Part shown: positions 5,323-24,778 of the stretch, piece after piece
How positions within the stretch are numbered: position 1 is the first letter of the stretch
Layout of the letters: each line of letters opens with the position of its first letter
Virus record (IMG/VR): IMGVR_UViG_3300010354_000018
Span: 1 to 33,605 of that record
Source of the DNA: a virus
Length of the DNA: 33,605 nt
Strand: one strand, 5' to 3'
Notes under the pieces: model-generated
Told to the model about the DNA's origin: nothing
The model's input: the letters and a program-made list of their open reading frames with translations, nothing else
Database searches by the model: none
Translations under genes and position numbers: made by a program

Positions 5323-5874
5323 TTATACTTTGATAAATCCGAAAACCGTTTTAGGAGTTACAACTTTAATCGAGTCCGCGCTCTTTTCGTGCTCTCTAAC
5401 GTCGAAGTGTAACCACCCCGGCGTGTCTTTTGGGTGTTCTAACCTTCTTAAGCCTAAAGCGTGGAAAGCTTTCGCGTTGGCTGTTACTATTGCGTACATT
5501 TGCGCGCCACTCATTCCGGAAACGTGTAAATCCGTCCCTCCGTCGTTGTGAGTCTTACCTTTTAAAATTCTATGAGCCGAGGCCGGCGCCCCTTGAGTGC
5601 ATCGGTCCGTACGAAGTCCGCACCAATCCGAGTAAGATCCTTTTGTAATATCTTCGATAATTTTATCAATTGATAAAGTATCTTTGTGCTCTTGGTAGTA
5701 AGGCCACCAATTATTAATAAAACAAGATTTACCGACAAGCTCGCGGAATAGTTGAGCGATAGCGAAGGCCTTAGGGTTTACTTTGCTTAGTCCGTTATCC
5801 GCACTTTTAAAGTAAGTCATCGGGTCGACAAACTCGTCTAAAAAAAAGTTTTTCGATACTGCTTTCCTTTCCAT
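5323..5874 (-). CDS. Endolysin-type peptidase, M15 family
   Basis: The 183-residue protein begins with SKNFFLDEFVDP, typical of phage and Bacteroidota M15 peptidases. It carries the zinc-site regions SAHRILKGKTHNDGGTDLHV (99-118; H101 or H109 and D115 as ligands) and GWLHFDVR (153-160; H156 and D158). The spacing in the first motif is longer than the classical SxHxxGxAxD. It probably cleaves peptidoglycan peptide cross-links during lysis. It has no signal peptide, so export would depend on the holin. It lies between the holin-like and spanin-like genes. Confidence 0.85.
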   Translation of the reverse strand: MERKAVSKNFFLDEFVDPMTYFKSADNGLSKVNPKAFAIAQLFRELVGKSCFINNWWPYYQEHKDTLSIDKIIEDITKGSYSDWCGLRTDRCTQGAPASAHRILKGKTHNDGGTDLHVSGMSGAQMYAIVTANAKAFHALGLRRLEHPKDTPGWLHFDVREHEKSADSIKVVTPKTVFGFIKV

Positions 5875-5883
5875 AAAATAAGA

Positions 5884-6183
5884 TTATTGAGTTACTTCTT
5901 TTGTCGGAGTAGCTTCGGGAGTTTTCTCCGGGCCTCCGCCGCTCTTAAATTTGATAATTTGATCCGCCGTAACAAGGCCAATAAAAAAGGCCGCCGCCAC
6001 CACGTCAATAATTAAAATGCTTATAGCGAGATGATCGCTTATAACCGGGAGGTTAAAAACTTGGTAATTTGCATAAACTCCGCAAAAAGTAAAAGTAAAA
6101 GCCGTTAATTTTCTCCCGCTGAAACCGTTGTCTTTTTTATTGTCAAAAGATCCTAAAAGCCCGTTTATTATTTCTTTTCTCAT
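5884..6183 (-). CDS. Holin candidate, two transmembrane segments
   Basis: 99 residues with two hydrophobic helices, about 27-46 (TAFTFTFCGVYANYQVF) and 51-76 (AISILIIDVVAAAFFIGLV), and a polar proline/glutamate/threonine-rich C-terminus. Size, topology and position just upstream of the M15 peptidase fit a class II-type holin; no family is recognised with certainty. Its ATG overlaps the stop of a 17-codon micro-frame. Confidence 0.65.
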   Translation of the reverse strand: MRKEIINGLLGSFDNKKDNGFSGRKLTAFTFTFCGVYANYQVFNLPVISDHLAISILIIDVVAAAFFIGLVTADQIIKFKSGGGPEKTPEATPTKEVTQ

Positions 6184-6233
6184 AAAGTTAGCTCGTAATT
6201 TTCAAAGGCTTCGCTAATAGTGTCAATTCTCAT
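6180..6233 (-). CDS. 17-codon micro-ORF coupled to both neighbours
   Basis: The ATG at 6233 overlaps the stop of the 6230-6571 gene (ATGA). The frame reads MRIDTISEAFENYELTL and its TGA overlaps the ATG of the holin-like gene. A purine-rich GAGGAAAG precedes the start. It may be a translational coupler and not a functional peptide. Confidence 0.4.
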   Translation of the reverse strand: MRIDTISEAFENYELTL

Positions 6234-6571
6234 CTTTCCTCCATTTCTTTTGCAAGCATTTTTAATTGCGCTTTTATATTATTGATTTCGTGCCCTTGCT
6301 CGATAACCTTGTCGACGTTATTCATTACAATTTGATTAATATCGCTCACCCTTCTGTTAGCTCTCTCGAGGTCCTTATCAATATTCATTAAAGAGCTGTC
6401 TATTTTAACCATGGATAAATTGATTAAATTAACTCTGTCGCTTAGATTGTTGAAGTTTTTAACGTGGTCGATTAAATTATCCTCAATTCTTTTTAAAGTA
6501 GTTTTAAGAAAAAAACCAATTACGCCAATAACAGCGGCTAAAATAATAGTGCTATATTGCTCATTCATCAT
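6230..6571 (-). CDS. Membrane-anchored coiled-coil lysis-cassette protein, 113 aa
   Basis: One N-terminal transmembrane helix (residues 7-24, TIILAAVIGVIGFFL) is followed by a long coiled coil over the rest of the protein. This arrangement resembles inner-membrane spanin subunits (Rz type) and also mirror images of XhlA-like proteins. Its place in the lysis cassette supports such a role. Its start overlaps the stop of the 64-residue gene. Confidence 0.6.
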   Translation of the reverse strand: MMNEQYSTIILAAVIGVIGFFLKTTLKRIEDNLIDHVKNFNNLSDRVNLINLSMVKIDSSLMNIDKDLERANRRVSDINQIVMNNVDKVIEQGHEINNIKAQLKMLAKEMEER

Positions 6572-6762
6572 TTAACCTTTTTTAAACCTTCTTTTTTCTC
6601 CTCTGCGATAGGCTTTACTTCGATACTTTCGACGTGCTTCATTAACATAGTAGCCGCCTCGAGGCTTGCGTCGTGCGCTTGTTTCTCTACCGGGGCCTTT
6701 GTGCTAATAGTATAAACGAAGTTTAAAGCTTCAACTAGCTTTTGTTTTTGTTGTGCATTCAT
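6568..6762 (-). CDS. Hypothetical protein, 64 aa
   Basis: A helical, lysine- and glutamate-rich small protein (MNAQQKQKLVEALNFVYTIS at its start). No signal peptide or known domain is visible. It opens the lysis cassette, its stop overlaps the start of the next gene by four bases, and its ATG follows an ATTTAAGGGGTTAA leader like those upstream of early genes. Confidence 0.65.
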   Translation of the reverse strand: MNAQQKQKLVEALNFVYTISTKAPVEKQAHDASLEAATMLMKHVESIEVKPIAEEKKEGLKKVK

Positions 6763-6786
6763 TGGGATATATTTAAGGGGTTAATA

Positions 6787-7092
6787 TTAAATTTCGTCGA
6801 CTACCGTTTTACCGGCCGCCGTTAAAGTCGCTTTTATTTTTTCGTAACATTGCTCCTTAGTTAAGCCCTCGGTTAACTCTTGAGCTCCGCCCTCGATATT
6901 TTCGAGTTGGTAGTTAAAAGATTTTTCGAAAGGAGAAAAAACTTCAACCTCTGCGCCTCCTTTTCCTTTGTAATATTTTACCGGTAGGATAACGTTACCC
7001 GCTTTATTTTGGTAAAACTCGGTAATATGTAAATATAAAACGGAGGTATTCCCCTCGCTTGTTGTTGTTGTTGTTGTTACTTTTAAGCCCAT
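6787..7092 (-). CDS. Hypothetical protein, 101 aa, downstream of tail fibre
   Basis: Unrecognised. Residues 5-11 are a threonine run encoded by a (GTT)6 tract on the plus strand (7061-7078), a possible slippage site. The middle is beta-rich (VLYLHITEFYQNKAGNVILP), the end helical. Since it immediately follows the fibre gene it could be a fibre accessory or chaperone, but nothing in the sequence proves this. Confidence 0.65.
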   Translation of the reverse strand: MGLKVTTTTTTSEGNTSVLYLHITEFYQNKAGNVILPVKYYKGKGGAEVEVFSPFEKSFNYQLENIEGGAQELTEGLTKEQCYEKIKATLTAAGKTVVDEI

Positions 7093-7148
7093 AGATATAT
7101 ATTTTTGATAAAGATAATTTTTTTTAGCTAATTTTTTCGCTCTCTCCT

Positions 7149-8747
7149 TTATATTTTAGTCCAACACGCGCCCGTCGCGTTATATTGGAACGTCGCCCCA
7201 CAGTTGTTGCGGATAGTTAAATTACTTGCTGTGTTGGTATATATAACCTCTCCCGCTGCTGCACTACCGTAAGCGTCGACGATAGTAATAGCCGCGCCCG
7301 TCTCATTCATTATAGTTAACAAGTGCCCGCCGGCGACCCCCGCGATAATACTACCGATAGAAGTTAGAGAGGCATTTGTTACCACTACCGTTGAGGTAGG
7401 GTGATCCGTAATTCTCGCGTTTGCTCCGGTCGCCGTGCTGTTTGTTGATTGAGAAAGTACGACGTCCCCGCCAAAGGTGGCGCTTTTATCGTCTTTAATT
7501 TCTAGGGCCGTGCCTCCGTCCGAGTTTTGAAAAATTGCGGTACTCGTACCGGGAGTATTCCCCGACCCTTTCGCGTGAAACCTTGCTAAGGCTGTGGATA
7601 AGCCGACCCCTAAATTATTTAAAAAATAAGAGTCTCCGTTCCCCGATATTCTACTTTTTGTAGCGCCTGAACTGTTTTTGATTTCAGCGTACCCGTGTCC
7701 CGAATCATTACCTAAATATACTGTATGATTTGATCCGTTCGTCCCTACAAAATGAAAGCTCCCACTCGTTCCCTCGGCCCATAAATTAATAGAAGTATTG
7801 TAGTTAAAATAAGTCGAGAGCGATCCTCTTTTCGCATAAACCATACCGCTAGTTTCAACCCTAAAACGCTCCGCTAAAGCCGAGTCGTAAACATTATACG
7901 CGGTACTTGTCCCGGCGGCGCAAAACTGCAATATTCCGAAAGCGGAAACCCCGTAAGGATCCAATTTTATATAAGTTGATCCGTCGCCAAAATTTGCGAT
8001 TTTGTCGCCCGACAATTTCAAAATAGAGCCCGTAGGTGAAAGAAACTCTAAATAATTTAGAGGAGTCGCCCCGTTAAGTGTATAGCTCCTAACATTTGCG
8101 TCCGCCGTAAGGTTTGCGTTTCCTAAGTTGTTCGCGCTCACCGCTGCCCAAGTAGGTACTCCGGCAACTAAGCTTAAAAAATGCCCGTTTGTGCCGACCG
8201 CCACCTCTCCAAAGGTATTGGTCGCGCTTATATACGGAATAGATCCCGCAACCCATGAAGATTTGCCGGTCCCTCCCTCTGTTGCTGCTACTTGAGCCGA
8301 AACGCTTAAAAGCCCCGTCCCGCCGCTAGTCTTAACGAAGCCGTTTGTATTTAGCAAGCTAAAGAGGTAATTAACCCCGTTGTCGGTAATACTACTATCG
8401 GCAACCGGGCCGCCGGTCGCGCTAAATTTTGCCAACTTATTAACAGTTCCCGAACCTGATACAAACAGCGTCCAATGTGCGGCGTTAAAAGCTCCCGGTC
8501 CCGTTACTTGGTTTGCTATATAAATAGCTCCTAAGTACGTGCACCCTTGGCCACTTTCGTAAGTTACTAAAGTGTTATAAGCTTTTAATCCAACGAGCGG
8601 CGCGTCCGTTATCTTGTTAAACATACTCGCCGCCAAGTTTTCCGCCATTTCGCGGACGTCTAAGGGGCTAATCTGTTGTGTCGTGTTGTTTGGTAACGAG
8701 CTCGCCGCTTGCGTTAAAAGGTCGTTTGTATTTTTTTGAACTGCCAT
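7149..8747 (-). CDS. Tail fibre / receptor-binding protein, 532 aa
   Basis: The N-terminal about 110 residues (starting MAVQKNTNDLLTQAASSLPN, with YESGQGCTYLGAIYIA) look like a baseplate-attachment domain. The middle is low-complexity and glycine/serine/asparagine-rich, with repeated short beta motifs such as GGTGLLS and GGTGKSS, as in trimeric fibres. The C-terminal about 100 residues (TSTVVVTNASLTSIGSI ... TIRNNCGATFQY) form a beta-rich tip. It probably contacts the host surface. It comes directly after the baseplate genes in transcription order. Confidence 0.75.
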   Translation of the reverse strand: MAVQKNTNDLLTQAASSLPNNTTQQISPLDVREMAENLAASMFNKITDAPLVGLKAYNTLVTYESGQGCTYLGAIYIANQVTGPGAFNAAHWTLFVSGSGTVNKLAKFSATGGPVADSSITDNGVNYLFSLLNTNGFVKTSGGTGLLSVSAQVAATEGGTGKSSWVAGSIPYISATNTFGEVAVGTNGHFLSLVAGVPTWAAVSANNLGNANLTADANVRSYTLNGATPLNYLEFLSPTGSILKLSGDKIANFGDGSTYIKLDPYGVSAFGILQFCAAGTSTAYNVYDSALAERFRVETSGMVYAKRGSLSTYFNYNTSINLWAEGTSGSFHFVGTNGSNHTVYLGNDSGHGYAEIKNSSGATKSRISGNGDSYFLNNLGVGLSTALARFHAKGSGNTPGTSTAIFQNSDGGTALEIKDDKSATFGGDVVLSQSTNSTATGANARITDHPTSTVVVTNASLTSIGSIIAGVAGGHLLTIMNETGAAITIVDAYGSAAAGEVIYTNTASNLTIRNNCGATFQYNATGACWTKI

Positions 8748-11002: not shown

Positions 11003-11647
11003 TTATTTTCTTAGTACTGTTAACTCGATAGGGTCGTCCGAAATAGCCGATATTTCAAAAAGTTGTACGTTTTGCGTTCCCTCTACTTGCGGAAAACTAA
11101 ACGACTCTATTACTATCGTTTGAATATTAAAAACGTCGTCCAAAAACCTCGACGCTACCCCGATCGACGTCTCCGCCTCGAGGTACTCCTTGAGCTGCGC
11201 GACCTCCTCCTCCGGATAACGTAAAGAGCTCGGAGAAACTAAAGCCCCTCGTATAGTAATTTGATAGTCGCCCTTACTAATGTACTCTTTAACCGTCCCG
11301 CTTACCCCTTGTATATTGGTTTTAATTATTTGCTTCTGCTGCGATACGTCAATTAAAACGGTGTCGATCTTAAAGTTTTCGTTTTTATCGTCGTTCTTAT
11401 AAATCTCTCCGTAGTTCACCGTTTGCCCTTTCTTATCCTTATAAGAGCCCGGTATAAAAATAAGGTTAGCAAAAACCGGAGTACCTAAGTAACTTGTAAT
11501 TTTAGGGTCGTTTTCGTCCTCGTCCTCCTCTGAAAAAAGGACACTATAAACTTTAGATTTTAAGCTTTGCAAGCCGAAACCTCTTAAAACGATTTCCGGG
11601 TCCACTATCGGAGCGAAACGTCCGCCTATTTTATCGAAACTTTTCAT
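11003..11647 (-). CDS. DUF6046-like tail/baseplate protein
   Basis: The 214-residue protein sits between the tape measure and the hub. The core (TNIQGVSGTVKEYISKGDYQ ITIRG in order, then YPEEEVAQLKEYLEA) resembles the tail-proximal family DUF6046 described in Bacteroidota phages; similar cores occur in LysM-domain tail adaptors. It probably joins tail tube and hub. The family assignment is from memory of pattern, not a search. Confidence 0.65.
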   Translation of the reverse strand: MKSFDKIGGRFAPIVDPEIVLRGFGLQSLKSKVYSVLFSEEDEDENDPKITSYLGTPVFANLIFIPGSYKDKKGQTVNYGEIYKNDDKNENFKIDTVLIDVSQQKQIIKTNIQGVSGTVKEYISKGDYQITIRGALVSPSSLRYPEEEVAQLKEYLEAETSIGVASRFLDDVFNIQTIVIESFSFPQVEGTQNVQLFEISAISDDPIELTVLRK

Positions 11648-11675: not shown

Positions 11676-13364
11676 TTATTGAGCAATGTTATTAACGTTA
11701 TTCACCGCACTTAAAAGAGCTTGAGCGACCAAATCCTTAGCTCTGTTATTAATATCGTCGAGGTTGGTCGCCGTTACGTTAAAAGTCTCGATAAGCTTAC
11801 CAATACTTATATTAATACTCGTCGGACGTCCCGACTTAACGGCGTCGACGCTTGTACTCGACTGCTTTCCACCCGCTCCCGCTCCGGCTGCTCCCGCTCC
11901 GGTCGCCTTTACTAAAGATTGAGACTTTAAAACGTCGTTAAAGTTTGCGGGTTTCTTTTCTCCTGTATCCGTCTTTAGCTTAAGAGGGTCCTTTATCATT
12001 TCCATATTAAAACCCTCCGCAAAGGCCGAGGCCATACGCTTACCTCCTTCGATAGGCGCGAAAGCGTCCGAAAGTCCGGAAAGCCCCTTTTTAATCTGAT
12101 CGACGTCTCCGCTAAAGATACCCGCCAATAAGTCGCCGACGCCGCCGAGTATATTCTTAGCCGAGTCCATTATTATAAGAAACCCCTCACGGATCAAATA
12201 TATAAGCCCTCTAAAAGTTTTACCTATAATAGGAAAACGCTCGAGAAAGCCGTCGAAAGCGTCTTTTATCTTAATTATAGCGTCGAAAACCGCCCCGAGT
12301 ACGTCGCGAATTTTCTCCCAAACCGGAGTCATAAATCGCATAACCTCTTGCAACCCGGCGAACGCGCTTTGTAAAGACTCCGCTATCGTTGCCCCTCCCA
12401 TTAATCTAGTGAAAAAAGACTCTACCAAGGCGCCCATTTCTCTAAAGTGAGTGATTAAAGGCTGTAAAGCTTGCATTATAACGCCGTAGTTAGTTTTAAG
12501 GAAGTTAAAGACGTTTTGGACTCCGCTCATAACCCTATTAATTATAGGCATCAATGAATTCCCTAAAGTAACCTTTAAATCTGTCATCATATTATTAAAG
12601 CGGTTAAAATTAGCTTGTGAGCTATTAACCGCCGTCTCTAATCCGCCGCCAAAAGTCTTTTTTAATTCATTCGAGAATTTAGGGAGAAAGTCCTCGGCCA
12701 TTATCTCGCCCTTTTCCATTGCTTTATCGAGCTGTTGCGTAGTCATTCCCATTGCACGGGCCGCAATATTGAAAGCTCCCGGAATACGCTCGCCGATTTG
12801 CCCGCGTAACTCCTCCGCTTGTACCTTTCCTTTACCCATTATTTGCCCTAGGGCCAACATAGCGCCTTTAGAGTCCTCCGCACTTAATCCCATTACCGAG
12901 CTCGCTACTTGGATCCCGTCGAAAATATCGCGAGTAGCTTGTCCTTCGAGCTTGGTCCCTATCATTGCGCCCGACAAAGTTTTAAAACCCTCCGCCGAGA
13001 CTCTTAAATCCGTACCTAGTAAATTCGACCGCTCTCGAATAAACTCCATATTTTTAGCGCCCTCCTCCGCCGATCCCGACGCGAAAGTTATCGCATTTTT
13101 TAAACTCTCAAACTCTCGGGCCGTCTTTACCGACTCCGACGCGAAACCGATAGCCGCGTTTAAGCCTTTATAAGCCAACGCCGCAAGCCCCACCTTTTTA
13201 ATTAAAGACTCTAAACCGCCGCCGGCCATATCCGCCCCTTGCTTTCCCTTCTTACCTATTCCCCCAATAGCATTATCGAGCCCCATAGCGGCGGCCGCTG
13301 CCTTTTTTAATCCGGGGCTTAACTTGTCGTTTAGCTCTATAACGTAGGTCGTACTTTCTGCCAT
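11676..13364 (-). CDS. Tail tape measure protein, 562 aa
   Basis: The conserved tape-measure core is clear: KTAREFESLKNAITFASGSA, then AEELRGQIGERIPGAFNIAA, RAMGMTTQQLDKAMEKGEI and AEDFLPKFSNELKKTFGGG. Hydrophobic segments lie near residues 50-75 and 380-420. The C-terminus is alanine/glycine/serine-rich. By the usual 0.15 nm per residue, 562 residues would give a tail of about 84 nm. A terminator (13401-13425) precedes the gene, so its expression is probably set below that of the chaperone. Confidence 0.9.
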   Translation of the reverse strand: MAESTTYVIELNDKLSPGLKKAAAAAMGLDNAIGGIGKKGKQGADMAGGGLESLIKKVGLAALAYKGLNAAIGFASESVKTAREFESLKNAITFASGSAEEGAKNMEFIRERSNLLGTDLRVSAEGFKTLSGAMIGTKLEGQATRDIFDGIQVASSVMGLSAEDSKGAMLALGQIMGKGKVQAEELRGQIGERIPGAFNIAARAMGMTTQQLDKAMEKGEIMAEDFLPKFSNELKKTFGGGLETAVNSSQANFNRFNNMMTDLKVTLGNSLMPIINRVMSGVQNVFNFLKTNYGVIMQALQPLITHFREMGALVESFFTRLMGGATIAESLQSAFAGLQEVMRFMTPVWEKIRDVLGAVFDAIIKIKDAFDGFLERFPIIGKTFRGLIYLIREGFLIIMDSAKNILGGVGDLLAGIFSGDVDQIKKGLSGLSDAFAPIEGGKRMASAFAEGFNMEMIKDPLKLKTDTGEKKPANFNDVLKSQSLVKATGAGAAGAGAGGKQSSTSVDAVKSGRPTSINISIGKLIETFNVTATNLDDINNRAKDLVAQALLSAVNNVNNIAQ

Positions 13365-13425: not shown

Positions 13426-13982
13426 TTAGTCCTTGTTTTTGTGCCGCTCGTTTTCTTGTCTGATAACCCACTCGAGGCCCGCCACTAACTTAAAATAAGC
13501 CTCGTCGCTCAAAGGCTCCGGATCTATTTTAAAGTGATAACGGATAAGTGAGTCCCATTGCAAACCCTCGTCGGCGTCGACGTTAATCTCTTTTATCCTT
13601 GCGTCGTAAAAATTTATTTGCCTAAATACTCCAAAAGAGTAAGCAAGCGATAAGTCTATCGACTCTAAAATCTTTACAACTTCGCTACGTTTCCCGAGCG
13701 CGTGCCTATTACAGTACCGAGCAAGCTCGCCGCAATTCTTAACGCTTCAAAGTCCTTAATAACGTCCTCAACCGGACCCGAAACCGTTAACGATCTCAAA
13801 AACATTTCCGCCGCGAGTAGTTCGTCTTTCTCCAACAACTTAGAGCCGGCCGAATAAGTTACGCGGTCCAACTTTTTAAGGATTAAAACGACCTCGTCGT
13901 CTTTTAACGGGATTGTTAGCTTAAACAATTCGCCGTGCTTGGCTTTTAAGCTTTCGATTTCTTTTTCTGTGATTTCTGCCAT
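13426..13982 (-). CDS. Tail assembly chaperone, -1 frameshift product (G-T type, 185 aa)
   Basis: From the ATG at 13982, ribosomes that slip back one base at GGGAAAC (13695-13689) leave the frame after codon 98 (AAC). They continue in an open frame of 87 codons that ends at 13426. The extension begins RSEVVKILESIDLSLAYSFG and ends ERHKNKD; it has no ATG near its beginning and no other source of expression. Two overlapping frames joined by a slippery heptamer immediately before the tape measure gene is the hallmark of tail assembly chaperones (lambda G/GT and counterparts). The long form would bring the tape measure to tail tube subunits. Confidence 0.85.
13674..13982 (-). CDS. Tail assembly chaperone, unshifted product (G type, 102 aa)
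   Basis: Short form made without frameshifting: an acidic helical protein (MAEITEKEIESLKAKHGELF at its start; ending SGNVAKL). Size and helix content fit gpG-type chaperones. The last four codons after the slippery site are unique to this form. It starts after the terminator at 14014-14049 with the usual AATTTTATA-type leader, and is made in excess of the long form in related systems. Confidence 0.8.
   Translation of the reverse strand: MAEITEKEIESLKAKHGELFKLTIPLKDDEVVLILKKLDRVTYSAGSKLLEKDELLAAEMFLRSLTVSGPVEDVIKDFEALRIAASLLGTVIGTRSGNVAKL
13689..13695 (-). promoter_or_regulatory. -1 ribosomal frameshift site GGGAAAC
   Basis: On the minus strand the heptamer reads G GGA AAC in the zero frame (codons 97-98), the canonical X XXY YYZ form. 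The zero-frame stop follows 12 nt later, while the -1 frame stays open for 87 codons. A weak stem (AGCGA with TCGCT about 30 nt apart) begins three bases downstream and might stimulate slipping. Confidence 0.85.
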
Positions 13983-14013
13983 ACTATAAAATTTAAAGTT
14001 TAACCAAAGATAT

Positions 14014-14049
14014 AAAAAAAACCTCCGGGTTTTTAGTCCGGAGGTTTTT
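14014..14049 (-). terminator. Terminator after the tail tube gene
   Basis: AAACCTCCGG (14019-14028) pairs with CCGGAGGTTT (14038-14047). On the minus strand the stem is followed by eight T (complement of 14014-14021). It also has a short T run on the plus strand, so it may act in both directions. It lies between the tube gene and the chaperone gene. Confidence 0.85.
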
Positions 14050-14089: not shown

Positions 14090-14518
14090 CTATTGCGCCC
14101 AATCAATATGAGAAACCGCAAGCTCGAGCTCCGCGATAACGTTACTATCGCCCTCCGCCGCGCCGCTTGGCGTGTTTTTAAATCGGCAATTTTTAATAAT
14201 ATCCGTAACCGGCGCGCTCCCCTCGGGAACGTAAGAAACGGTAATATCAAACTCGCCAATATTTTGAAGTCTGTTTTTTGGAGCCGCTTTAAGCAAAGCG
14301 TTTAACTCCGCACGGTCGATTGTCATACTCGCCTCACTTTCGATTTTCCCCAAGCCTCTCGATACGGGAAAACGTCCCGCTCCAAAGTTTTCGGTAATTT
14401 CTTGTTTATCCGAGTAGTTAATCGCCGTTATCCCGGCTAGTGGTGAACCCAAAACCGTAACGATGATGTCGGCGTAAGCATAAGCTTGTCCGTTTACTAG
14501 TGGTGTATTGTCTGCCAT
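14090..14518 (-). CDS. Tail tube protein, 142 aa
   Basis: A beta-rich protein (AYADIIVTVLGSPLAGITAI, then EITENFGAGRFPVSRGLGKI and SEASMTIDRAEL) directly after the sheath gene and before the chaperone, the normal place and size for the major tail tube subunit of contractile tails. The motif region with the G.g..P..r..G pattern resembles gp19/Hcp-fold tube proteins of Bacteroidota phages. A frame of 88 codons on the same strand (13993-14259) overlaps it and is spurious. Confidence 0.8.
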   Translation of the reverse strand: MADNTPLVNGQAYAYADIIVTVLGSPLAGITAINYSDKQEITENFGAGRFPVSRGLGKIESEASMTIDRAELNALLKAAPKNRLQNIGEFDITVSYVPEGSAPVTDIIKNCRFKNTPSGAAEGDSNVIAELELAVSHIDWAQ

Positions 14519-14530
14519 TTTCTTAAAGTT

Positions 14531-15706
14531 TTAGAGGCTTGGTACAAAGCCGAGGTTAATAACTATTTCGCGAGCTACGCCAACCGGAACCAATTTAACG
14601 GTTATTTCTAATTTACTTGTACTAACTACGTTTTGAGCCGAGTTAATTACAATTTCGTAAGCCGAAAGCTCTCCGTTTGCCTCCATTGATGCGAGAGCAC
14701 GGTCCGCCAATGCTTTAAACGTTTTAACGGTGTCCTCTCTAAGAGTGCCGTCCGCGTTTACTCTTAACGGGCTACCAAGTTTCGGAACTATAAAAGTTCT
14801 CAAGTTTCTTGTCGCCTTGTCAATAGTTCTATTATTCTCGATCGTCGCCAAGTCGTTTGTTACCGCTACGCTGCTATAACTATCGTTATTGTAAGTATTA
14901 GAGAAACCTATCTCTTTTACTAAAAACAAGTAACCTTTATCGTCGATCGCATTTACTAAAGACGTCGCAGTCAAAGCAAAAGCGCCGCCGTTTGCGAAGT
15001 GTGCCGTGTCAAATTCCGCCCCGTCTGTTACCATTGGGAACTTCTCAAAATAACTTATAGACTCGTTAACGTTGGCCGCTGAAACAGCCCCAAGTTTAGC
15101 GCCTAAATCGGTAATTGAGTAAGATTTTGATAAAAACAAAGCTCTACCTTTCGCGTTACCGTCTTGGCCAATACATACCGAAACAGAGGGGGCCGTCAAG
15201 GCTCTAAGGTCCGGAAGTGTTGACAAGTCGGAAACCGCGAAAATATTAGGACCGTATAAAATAGATAACGGTTTATTTTCTGTTTTTAAAGTTGTTGCAA
15301 CCGCTTGCAAAGCTGTTACTTGAGCCGTAGCAAAAGCCGCCAAAGGATAATATACGCCTACTTGGCGAATATTTCCAAGAGCTGTGTCTTGCATTGTTTT
15401 AACGTCGATAAACGTCGGGGTGCTTACCGGCTCGGCAAAGTAACCGATCCAAAGCTCGCCGTTTGGCTGTTTTTGGAAAAATTCTCTTACGTGATACCAA
15501 TGTACGCCAAAATCTGCGCTACCTTCGATAATACCTAAAGCCTCCGCTTGAGCTAAAGAGAAAACAGTTTTGATACGGGCGTTACTTGAGAAACCACTCG
15601 GGAGAGTGTCCTCGTAAAACACTAAACCGCTGATGTGGTCCTTACTCGTTAAAGGAGTACCAAGGCCGGCCGTGTTGATGTTGAATAATACTTTATTTAG
15701 TGCCAT
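14531..15706 (-). CDS. Tail sheath protein, 391 aa (DUF2586-like)
   Basis: The N-terminal half carries HISGLVFYEDTLPSGFSSNA and WYHVREFFQKQPNGELWIGY. The C-terminal half carries TNDLATIENNRTIDKATRNL RTF and VKLVPVGVAREIVINLGFV. This is the layout of contractile sheath proteins, in which the insertion/protease-like domain is followed by a conserved polymerisation domain. The sequence resembles DUF2586 sheath proteins of Bacteroidota. Gene order sheath-tube-chaperone-tape measure confirms the role. Confidence 0.85.
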   Translation of the reverse strand: MALNKVLFNINTAGLGTPLTSKDHISGLVFYEDTLPSGFSSNARIKTVFSLAQAEALGIIEGSADFGVHWYHVREFFQKQPNGELWIGYFAEPVSTPTFIDVKTMQDTALGNIRQVGVYYPLAAFATAQVTALQAVATTLKTENKPLSILYGPNIFAVSDLSTLPDLRALTAPSVSVCIGQDGNAKGRALFLSKSYSITDLGAKLGAVSAANVNESISYFEKFPMVTDGAEFDTAHFANGGAFALTATSLVNAIDDKGYLFLVKEIGFSNTYNNDSYSSVAVTNDLATIENNRTIDKATRNLRTFIVPKLGSPLRVNADGTLREDTVKTFKALADRALASMEANGELSAYEIVINSAQNVVSTSKLEITVKLVPVGVAREIVINLGFVPSL

Positions 15707-21619: not shown

Positions 21620-21788
21620 TTTGTAAAAGTTCAAGCATTTTATCACTTATACCGCTAAAAATAGCCTCGATAGCTCCCGGAGTTTGCTCGTCTTGGGCCG
21701 CTATCTTGTCAATTATTTGCTGTACCTCTTTAGGGTCGTCCGACTCCTTAGCTCTAAAAATTAAGCTTTTAATTTCTTCCCATTCCAT
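21603..21788 (-). CDS. Hypothetical protein, 61 aa
   Basis: A short acidic helical protein (MEWEEIKSLIFRAKESDDPK at its start), with no recognised family. It overlaps the stop of the portal fusion by one base and the start of the next gene by 17 bases, so it is tightly coupled in the head/neck block. A scaffold, neck or regulatory role cannot be told apart. Confidence 0.6.
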   Translation of the reverse strand: MEWEEIKSLIFRAKESDDPKEVQQIIDKIAAQDEQTPGAIEAIFSGISDKMLELLQNGQEE

Positions 21789-24778
21789 TACTTAGCGATT
21801 TTAAAGGTTTTTATATCTACGCCTAATTCATTGTGTAAGTTGACTAAAAAGTCGTAAACTTTTCCGTGTTCTTTTTTTAGGTAGTCGTGAGCGTGAACGT
21901 AAACGGCCATATTTTCGGCGTAAAACTCGGACCAATCGCTCGAGCCGTAAGTCGTTACGGAGTCTTTAAGTCTTACCCCGTACTTTATAGCGGCCGCCTC
22001 TGTTTTTAATCGTCGTCCTCTAGTTATCGGATCAATCGAGTTGTGGATCGCGTGGTTAACTTCGTGGCTAATTAACGGAGCTATCGACTTACTACTTATT
22101 CCGCTCGCCTCTGTAACTCCGTGAAACAAAACAAAACCGTCGGGCTTAATATCCCCCATAACTTGCGCGGTTGGTAGTCCGGTTTTTCTACTTATCCCCG
22201 TCCTTTTGCAAAGTTGTTTTCTTGTATTAATATAATAGGTTTCCGGGAATTTTTTAACAACGTCCTCGGCTTTGTGTACCATATTAACGACCTCAAAATT
22301 AAGATTTTCGTCTCTTTTCTTAATTATATTAATAAATCTATTTGATTGAGCGCAATGTCCAAGCGAGTCGCTAGTTACATTTTGCACGTTATTCGCTCCC
22401 GTTTCTTTTGCCCACTTTAGAGATCCGGCTCCGGTACGCTCCGACGACGTTCTTATCCCTAAATCCGTCCTAAAGTCGTTTAAAACTTTAGCGGCCCCGT
22501 CTTGGTTGTTGATAAGGTCCTCAAGTTGTGCCCTATCTAAGTCCTTAATAGTGGATTTTATAAGGTTAGAGTCTAATTTCACCACCGGAGGAGTATAAGC
22601 CTCTTGAGCCTTCTTAATCTCTTTAACTATCTCCTCGCTGCTTAGTTTCGGCGGCTCCGGGAGGCCAAAGTTATTGGCTTGGTCCTTCTTAAAAGCTCGA
22701 GGGATTTTAAAATAAGGGTGTTCTTTTCCGAAAACCTCGACGCCCGGGTTATTTTTCATATAGTCCGGAGTTTGTAGTCCTTTGCCGTCCGTCTCTTTAT
22801 TTATTCTCTCCTCGATAACGTCGTCCGGCGTCTCGATAGCCTCCTCAACTTGCTTTAAATCACAGCGACAATTCCAACCGTTAAGCGGCGCGTTTTCCTT
22901 CCAAAAAGGAGAGTCGTATCTCTTAACGATACCGTTCAAAGCTTTGTGAGCCGGGCGGACCCTATCGTCTCCCGCTGTTACATAGCGCAAATAAGGGAAG
23001 AGCTCCGCCTCCTCACCAAATTGCTTCCACTTGTCGGCCATTTGAGCGGACCCCTTAGCGTGGTTTATTTCAGTCCTTAGATAATTAACGTTAAACTCGC
23101 CAAAAACCTTTTTAGCGTAGTCCTTATATTCTTTGAAACTGCGAGGGTTTCCGTTTTCGTCGATTAAGTAGTCGCTCATAAGCTTAACCTCGTGCCAAGT
23201 CTTAGCTCCGGAAAAAGTAAAGAGGTTTTTTTGAAGTGTTTTAATATACTCCGGGTCCTTAATAGTACTAAGAGCCTCGCCCGTCGCTAGTCCGTCGTAA
23301 AGCCCTTGCATAAGTCGCGCCCCTATTTCGTTGTAAAGGTTTGCCGGGAGGTTGTCGATAGTATAAAGCCCGGAATAAACTCCCGCGATAACCTCCTCGA
23401 CGTACTCGTCGGACCACTCCGGGAGAGGTGTCTCCTCGTAGTCCAAAGTATTGCATACGTGTAAGCTACTCGCCGAGGTAAAAGCTTCGTAAATACTCGC
23501 TAAAGTCGTTTTTTTTTTAATTGAGTTGTCCAACTCGTCGCCCTCCGCGCTATCTTCTTTTTTTGGCCCTTCCTTTGGTCCTTTTGGCCCTCCTTTTTCG
23601 TCGTCGTTTTCTTCCTTTTCGTCGATAGGTGTCCCGTAAGTGTCTGTAAGGTAAGCCTTAGGAACGTTAAACCCGAGCTTAATAAGCTCCGAGTCTATTT
23701 TAAACTGCTCCGCCTTGGTCGTGTTTTCCGTGTCGTCAAACATAAAGCGCCCGGTAATATTGAAACCGTGGTACTTATTAAGGAAAGGGATAAGCTCGTC
23801 GTTAACCAATGAAGTAATAAAGAAAGCGTCCTCTTTGTTGATCGCGGCGCTTGTTCTCTCGTGAACCTCGCTTTGTGAGCGGCTGCTCCCGGCGTCCATT
23901 GTCATAGTGGACCCAAGTATTAACTTGCTAACCTCCGAGTTAACTCTCTCAATTAGTTGGTTATATACGTTATGGGAGTCGGTTTTCCCGTCTCTAATAA
24001 ACTCTAAGCTGTCCGACTCGTCGAAAACTCCGAAAGCATTACGCCCCATATTTTCCAACATATCAAACATATTATCTCTAAGCTCTTTATCTCTTATATT
24101 AGTTTTTCCTAGTCTGAAAGGAGCCCCGAAAAGCTCCGCGAACTCGGTCCAAGATCCGATAGCCGTCTTTTTATAGATAACAAGCGGCGCCGCTTTCATC
24201 AAAAGCCCTAAGTCGGTCGGTTTCCCAACTCCCATAAGCCAAGCGTCGTAAGGAGCGTCGTCAAAGTAAATTAAATCGTTTGAGTCATACGGCGACTTCC
24301 TTACCGCGTTTTTTTGTGCATAAACATACTCGCGAGGGATAAGCTCAACGCTTTTAAAACGCTTTCCTTTAAGGTCGCCAAACTGAATAAGAGAGTAACC
24401 AAAAAATTTAGACTCTAGGGCTAACCTTAAAAAATCCCTAAACCAAGGAGAGGTAAAGATTTCAGTCTCCTCTTTAAGCTCCTCGTTTTTATCGTCCACG
24501 ACTTTAAAGTCTTTCGACGTTGTTCTTATAATCCTTGAGTCAATAGAGGCGCTAAGATGAGCGTCGATAATTACGTCGTTATATACGCGGATAAGGTCCA
24601 CGCAAATAGGGTTGTAAGGGTCCTCGAAATTACTTACGCCACTTTTCCAACTCTTTAACTCTTGGTTAAAGCGGTACATTTGTTGGCGGATAGTCTTTTT
24701 CTCTATTCTCTCCGCTTGCTTTGCAGGCTCGTTAACTGCCGGCTTAATAGCGTTAAATAATTTATCTAGTAGTCCCAT
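21788..24778 (-). CDS. Portal (DUF935-like) - MuF head protein - zincin metallopeptidase fusion, 996 aa
   Basis: Three domains in one chain. Residues 1 to about 380 are a Mu gp29/DUF935-type portal (FGYSLIQFGDLKGKRFKSVE, and the MTMDAGSSRSQSEVHERTSA segment). Residues about 490-645 are the Mu F minor head domain (EINHAKGSAQMADKWKQFGE, GWNCRCDLKQ). Residues about 770-996 are an added domain with HEVNH (905-909) and SEFYAE (950-955), the HExxH zinc-binding helix and downstream glutamate of zincin peptidases. Linkers are glycine/lysine/glutamate-rich. MuF proteins with C-terminal effector-like domains are known; an N-terminal portal fusion in the same chain is rarer. The peptidase may cut a head protein or act in the host. 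Confidence 0.85.
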   Translation of the reverse strand: MGLLDKLFNAIKPAVNEPAKQAERIEKKTIRQQMYRFNQELKSWKSGVSNFEDPYNPICVDLIRVYNDVIIDAHLSASIDSRIIRTTSKDFKVVDDKNEELKEETEIFTSPWFRDFLRLALESKFFGYSLIQFGDLKGKRFKSVELIPREYVYAQKNAVRKSPYDSNDLIYFDDAPYDAWLMGVGKPTDLGLLMKAAPLVIYKKTAIGSWTEFAELFGAPFRLGKTNIRDKELRDNMFDMLENMGRNAFGVFDESDSLEFIRDGKTDSHNVYNQLIERVNSEVSKLILGSTMTMDAGSSRSQSEVHERTSAAINKEDAFFITSLVNDELIPFLNKYHGFNITGRFMFDDTENTTKAEQFKIDSELIKLGFNVPKAYLTDTYGTPIDEKEENDDEKGGPKGPKEGPKKEDSAEGDELDNSIKKKTTLASIYEAFTSASSLHVCNTLDYEETPLPEWSDEYVEEVIAGVYSGLYTIDNLPANLYNEIGARLMQGLYDGLATGEALSTIKDPEYIKTLQKNLFTFSGAKTWHEVKLMSDYLIDENGNPRSFKEYKDYAKKVFGEFNVNYLRTEINHAKGSAQMADKWKQFGEEAELFPYLRYVTAGDDRVRPAHKALNGIVKRYDSPFWKENAPLNGWNCRCDLKQVEEAIETPDDVIEERINKETDGKGLQTPDYMKNNPGVEVFGKEHPYFKIPRAFKKDQANNFGLPEPPKLSSEEIVKEIKKAQEAYTPPVVKLDSNLIKSTIKDLDRAQLEDLINNQDGAAKVLNDFRTDLGIRTSSERTGAGSLKWAKETGANNVQNVTSDSLGHCAQSNRFINIIKKRDENLNFEVVNMVHKAEDVVKKFPETYYINTRKQLCKRTGISRKTGLPTAQVMGDIKPDGFVLFHGVTEASGISSKSIAPLISHEVNHAIHNSIDPITRGRRLKTEAAAIKYGVRLKDSVTTYGSSDWSEFYAENMAVYVHAHDYLKKEHGKVYDFLVNLHNELGVDIKTFKIAK

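Follow-up and report, generated by a model that had tools for sequence, protein, structure and literature searches.

A predicted -1 frameshift at G_GGA_AAC in a probable tail assembly chaperone gene, conserved among Bacteroidota phages and prophages

The gene at 13426–13982 on the minus strand of the window (the whole stretch of DNA that was analysed, a virus record of 33,605 bases) very probably encodes a tail assembly chaperone in a short and a long form, the long form arising from a -1 slip at the heptamer G_GGA_AAC. The two reading frames, the slip site, its conservation and the order of the surrounding genes are read directly from the DNA. Frameshifts of this kind are known from the G/GT gene of phage lambda; the predicted case described here belongs to a new, widespread branch that extends, mostly without being annotated, across a large group of Bacteroidota phages. 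The gene and its neighbours are as follows.

14531..15706, minus strand: tail sheath (PF10758 DUF2586, PHROG 907)
14090..14518, minus strand: tail tube protein (PHROG 4579 tail protein)
13674..13982, minus strand: zero-frame ORF of 102 aa, predicted short (G-like) form of the chaperone (PHROG 19076, unknown function, E 4e-9)
13689..13695, minus strand: slippery heptamer G_GGA_AAC, invariant in 15 of 15 close loci
13674..13676, minus strand: zero-frame stop TAA, 12 nt (four sense codons) past the heptamer
13426..13689, minus strand: -1 frame extension, 87 codons plus TAA, predicted T-like domain
11676..13364, minus strand: tape measure protein (PF20155)
11003..11647, minus strand: baseplate hub-type protein (PF19512 DUF6046, PHROG 5233)

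The zero frame begins with an ATG at 13982. Counted from there, the first G of GGGAAAC is the third base of a codon, and the heptamer is read as G GGA AAC. The initial annotation had placed this heptamer 12 nt before the end of the zero frame, followed by a -1 frame of 87 codons that ends at 13426 and gives a product of 185 residues. Both claims agree with the coordinates – the heptamer occupies 13695–13689 and the stop 13676–13674, the first codon after a slip is CGT at 13689, and 98 residues from the zero frame plus 87 from the extension, which is closed by the TAA at 13428–13426, make 185. The -1 frame opens at 13746, which gives the two frames an overlap of 73 nt. The extension had also been said to lack a start of its own, and this too is correct: the first ATG, GTG or TTG that the -1 frame offers is a TTG at 13563, which falls mid-way through the conserved domain of the extension. 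A second open frame that overlaps the first without its own start is one mark of G/GT-type chaperone genes, and a place between the tube and tape measure genes is another. Here the order is sheath, tube, chaperone, tape measure and then the DUF6046 baseplate gene, with a terminator-like hairpin (13427–13402) preceding the tape measure gene at 13364–11676, as had been proposed.

The heptamer alone is not unusual – GGGAAAC occurs four times in the window, against 7.15 expected from shuffles. It is the phase, place and conservation of the motif that go beyond chance, rather than its mere presence. All 15 loci of the window's clade have GGGAAAC in an identical phase, with the zero-frame stop exactly 12 nt beyond it; the close relatives were taken from IMG/VR and have extension identities of 41 to 99%. 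In a codon alignment of 12 close relatives, the third base is constant in only 4 of the 102 columns, and three of these four are the consecutive codons of the heptamer. The codon preceding GGA varies (TCG, ACG, GTG, AAG or GCG) and ends in G in 12 of 12 sequences. GGA and AAC are likewise used in all 12, though GGA makes up 17 to 29% and AAC 50 to 65% of their synonyms. If the slip occurs at the heptamer, ribosomes do not translate its bases in the -1 frame, and dual coding therefore fails to account for their constancy. In five loci (L013 and L030–L033), a stop closes the -1 frame only a few nucleotides upstream of the heptamer, which confines the shift to a stretch of eight codons, and the sole strict slippery motif in that stretch is GGGAAAC. 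Conservation of the heptamer in relatives had been suggested as a check, and its loss from relatives that keep both frames, each with its own start, as the observation that would speak against a frameshift. No such relative was found; the closest exceptions are head-less contractile clusters, described below, in which the long form is one in-frame gene and the short form has a gene of its own.

A wider family of loci was gathered from viral contigs and Bacteroidota genomes by searching with the extension alone. All 46 of the two-frame loci analysed have a chaperone-like ORF upstream, and in each of them the extension is in the -1 frame relative to it. A strict slippery heptamer in phase inside the overlap is present in 41 of the 46, a count to be read with the caution that some of the loci are near-identical and the independent support is smaller; the background density of such motifs would account for 6.5 loci, and in 500 synonymous shuffles the count averaged 13.8 and never exceeded 22. 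The remaining five loci have no strict heptamer. G_GGA_AAC (15 loci) and A_AAA_AAG (13 loci) are joined by other types, including A_AAT_TTT and runs of A. With 15 of 15 close loci and 41 of 46 across the family, a conserved in-phase slippery site within the overlap is a third feature shared with G/GT-type genes.

The relatives occur in Bacteroidota genomes and in phages of the Winoviridae. Three isolates of the latter, pippi8-1, Peternella and FPSV-S1, share the extension, and in each of them A_AAA_AAG lies three bases ahead of the stop that ends the zero frame. In the public records the extension is unannotated (FPSV-S1, Peternella) or appears as an isolated ORF of 42 aa (pippi8-1), and in none is it given as a frameshift; the long protein is missing from the records examined. 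Papers on the Winoviridae (PMC8776804) and on Porphyromonas phages (PMC10367356) do not mention a frameshift in the chaperone or tail genes, although absence there is not proof. The lambda-type G/GT frameshift is extended, on the direct evidence of the sequences, to Bacteroidota phages and prophages with contractile tails, which form a broad group. Annotations of such genomes could be corrected by a simple signature: a short ORF ending just past A_AAA_AAG, A_AAT_TTT or G_GGA_AAC, together with a -1 frame domain carrying a RYHFKIDP-type motif.

The extension itself has the properties of a protein. Most substitutions between the window and its relatives affect the third codon position of the -1 frame – against L002, for example, there are 7 at the first position, 3 at the second and 22 at the third – and this bias indicates that the extension evolves as a protein in that frame. 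A motif around RYHFKIDP is common to distant members. The extension is predicted by AlphaFold2 to be helical, with high confidence in the C-terminal half and a core pLDDT of 95–98. Searches of Pfam and PHROGs assigned it to no family. Its only profile matches among solved structures were S100 proteins, with E above 0.05, which were taken as chance, and a likeness of the model to histones was a single weak fold match (Z 2.3) and uninformative. Rows from the phage collection were excluded from two of the structure runs.

Five genomes encode a homologue of the extension together with an N-terminal part like the zero-frame product in one long open frame. In one of them, a single ORF of 156 aa, profile comparison confirmed both halves (hhalign E 3e-8 and 1e-10). 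The presence of both halves in one in-frame gene favours the reading of the two frames as one protein. In the four examined (L087–L090), DUF6046, hub and spike genes come immediately after the long gene, and no homologue of the tape measure gene was found between them. The most widely read of these clusters, G320, has sheath, tube and baseplate genes, and no homologues of terminase, portal or capsid were found in it. A separate short chaperone of 114 residues adjoins the tube gene in two genomes. The one in G320 matches the zero-frame family (E 2e-18), and its gene contains neither a slippery site nor an open -1 frame. The genes are located as follows.

L087, 6679–7149: single-ORF long chaperone
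L091, 14078–14422: separate short chaperone
L088 and L093: matching genes

With a separate short gene that has no slip site and a single-ORF long gene, the head-less clusters seem to make the two forms from two genes. Comparison with these clusters opens the long-standing question of why both products are kept by phages to a direct test. One tail-like cluster, L091, also encodes (5670–8201) a protein of 843 aa with fn3 repeats and a C-terminal Hint/pretoxin-Hint-like domain, which is possibly a self-processing protein borne on the particle.

Gene order and the predicted fold both support the view that the protein is a chaperone. The model of the zero-frame product has a mean pLDDT of 86.6. Its top match among 996 chains is 3FGX (Z 9.6, 92 aligned residues, 2.7 A), which is also found by the zero-frame sequence profile (E 0.005) and is itself uncharacterised. 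YqbN (3KLU, Z 4.9) and the HK97 tail assembly chaperone (2OB9, Z 4.5) rank second and third, both of them weak matches, and neither was detected by the sequence profile. Because 3FGX is uncharacterised and the other fold matches are weak, the chaperone identity is supported, not proved. A real frameshift in some other tail morphogenesis factor would agree with the lack of an assigned function for PHROG 19076 and with the modest matches to proven chaperones, but we consider it improbable, since the gene stands directly after the tube gene and before the tape measure gene, has the two-form layout, and finds known chaperones among its best structural matches. The original assignment to the G/GT chaperones, from position, two-frame layout and slip site, is thus in agreement with the gene order and the zero-frame fold, with the frameshift as a prediction. 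For a G/GT-type chaperone, both forms are expected to be absent from virions.

Alternatively, each frame could be a gene in its own right, with translation of the second starting by re-initiation or at a non-standard start codon. Coupled re-initiation is possible in principle, since the zero frame ends within the second open frame, and the pippi8-1 record does contain a separate ORF within the extension. However, the window offers no ATG, GTG or TTG ahead of the conserved domain, coupling needs neither an invariant GGGAAAC nor a -1 relationship at every one of the family loci, and the single-ORF homologue joins both parts; two separate genes are therefore very improbable. A single contig alone could not exclude that a frame-breaking mutation or an assembly error has split one gene. 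Yet dozens of contigs, drawn from separate samples, share the same -1 layout, as do bacterial genomes and isolated phages, and the slip site is under constraint. Conservation of the layout across loci already refutes a mutation or assembly error, to which we assign next to no probability.

The frame might instead be changed by slippage of the transcribing polymerase rather than of the ribosome. Polymerase slippage is established for homopolymers of about eight or more, and a few relatives (L037, L039, L071 and L073) have runs of 8–9 A at the frame junction, which could allow transcriptional slippage besides ribosomal slippage. In the window's clade the only runs are GGG and AAA, which are too short, and we consider this route very improbable.

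Under the favoured reading, a -1 ribosomal slip in a chaperone gene, most ribosomes would stop at 13674 and release the protein of 102 residues. A minority, with both tRNAs on the G_GGA_AAC site, would move back by one base, translate 87 more codons and produce the protein of 185 residues. By analogy with lambda gpG/gpGT, the shared N-terminal part may keep the tape measure protein soluble and the extension may recruit tail-tube subunits, and the proportion of the two forms, set by slippage, would be important for a contractile tail to reach its correct length. Slippage in vivo is inferred, as are how often it occurs and what the two parts bind.

In lambda, the short form has the tape measure protein as its binding partner and the extension has the tube protein, and the balance between the two forms matters (PMC5009743). 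Lambda uses a -1 frameshift at G_GGA_AAG; the present phage is likewise predicted to shift by -1, at a heptamer that ends in C. It differs from lambda in that the tail is contractile, the phages belong to Bacteroidota hosts, and the extension has no detectable similarity to known families. A point against the favoured reading is that, in E. coli, a heptamer that ends in AAG is a better shift site than its AAC counterpart, and A_AAA_AAG shifts much more than A_AAA_AAC (PMC5009743). For mammalian ribosomes, G_GGA_AAC ranks among the best -1 sites (PMC3483164, PMC5009743). G_GGA_AAC has been predicted in the same kind of gene in Burkholderia phage KL1 (gp18/gp19) and in the haloarchaeal virus HCTV-1 (PMC3483164, PMC5009743); their hosts are unrelated to that of the present phage, and the likeness consists of the heptamer and the kind of gene. 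With YqbN and the HK97 chaperone the zero-frame product shares a partly similar predicted fold, at Z under 5 and 9–13% identity. Phage Mu also recodes its tail gene, through a -2 shift in genes 41/42 (PMC5009743), and Mu-type portal and head genes occur in the present phage. A shift of the Mu 41/42 type does not fit the extension, which is in the -1 frame in 46 of 46 loci. The present phage encodes a Mu-type portal and a terminase, and an ORF of 996 aa at 21788–24778 of the window fuses Mu-type portal and Mu F-like head morphogenesis domains.

Several candidate RNA elements lie within or around the gene.

13667..13683, minus strand: possible weak hairpin, candidate stimulator, 5 nt past the heptamer with the zero-frame stop in its loop
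13405..13424, minus strand: predicted intrinsic terminator at the junction of chaperone and tape measure genes
14018..14048, minus strand: predicted intrinsic terminator upstream of the chaperone gene
14005..14012, minus strand: TATCTTTG, which resembles the Bacteroidota -7 promoter box TAnnTTTG and probably has a similar counterpart in relatives

In the hairpin at 13667–13683, 76% of cells are paired in register, compared to 38–56% when the stem is slid. The stem around the stop thus beats its slid versions but is broken in several relatives, so it is only a candidate. RNAalifold found no consensus structure in 12 close junctions, and Rfam searches around the gene gave only sub-threshold matches, over the terminator region.

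Only three intrinsic terminators are predicted on the operon strand of the whole window, and two of them bracket the chaperone gene; ten shuffles of the window strand contained 0 to 2. The upstream terminator is present in 13 of the 13 clade loci checked, with a stem sequence that differs between relatives. A stricter scan found the downstream terminator in 11 of the 13, and the other two have an obvious hairpin of lower score. In most of these 13 loci, a TAnnTTT-like promoter-like box follows each terminator. Among the other lineages, a terminator was found only in L035 (upstream) and L018 (downstream). This arrangement suggests that the chaperone gene may be transcribed as its own unit in the window's clade. 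Chaperone dose may then be set twice in this clade, by the -1 slip and by a separate unit between terminators, each followed by a promoter-like -7 box, one ahead of the chaperone gene and one ahead of the tape measure gene. In the head-less clusters two genes, one short and one long, would have replaced the slip, and together these would form a natural series for the stoichiometry of the two products. This is a tentative idea, held with slightly less than even confidence.

Outside the Bacteroidota, Meiothermus phage MMP7 (L097, 5900–6368) has an XkdN-like ORF with a downstream frame of 65 codons in the +1/-2 register, and this locus is possibly a further case of recoding.
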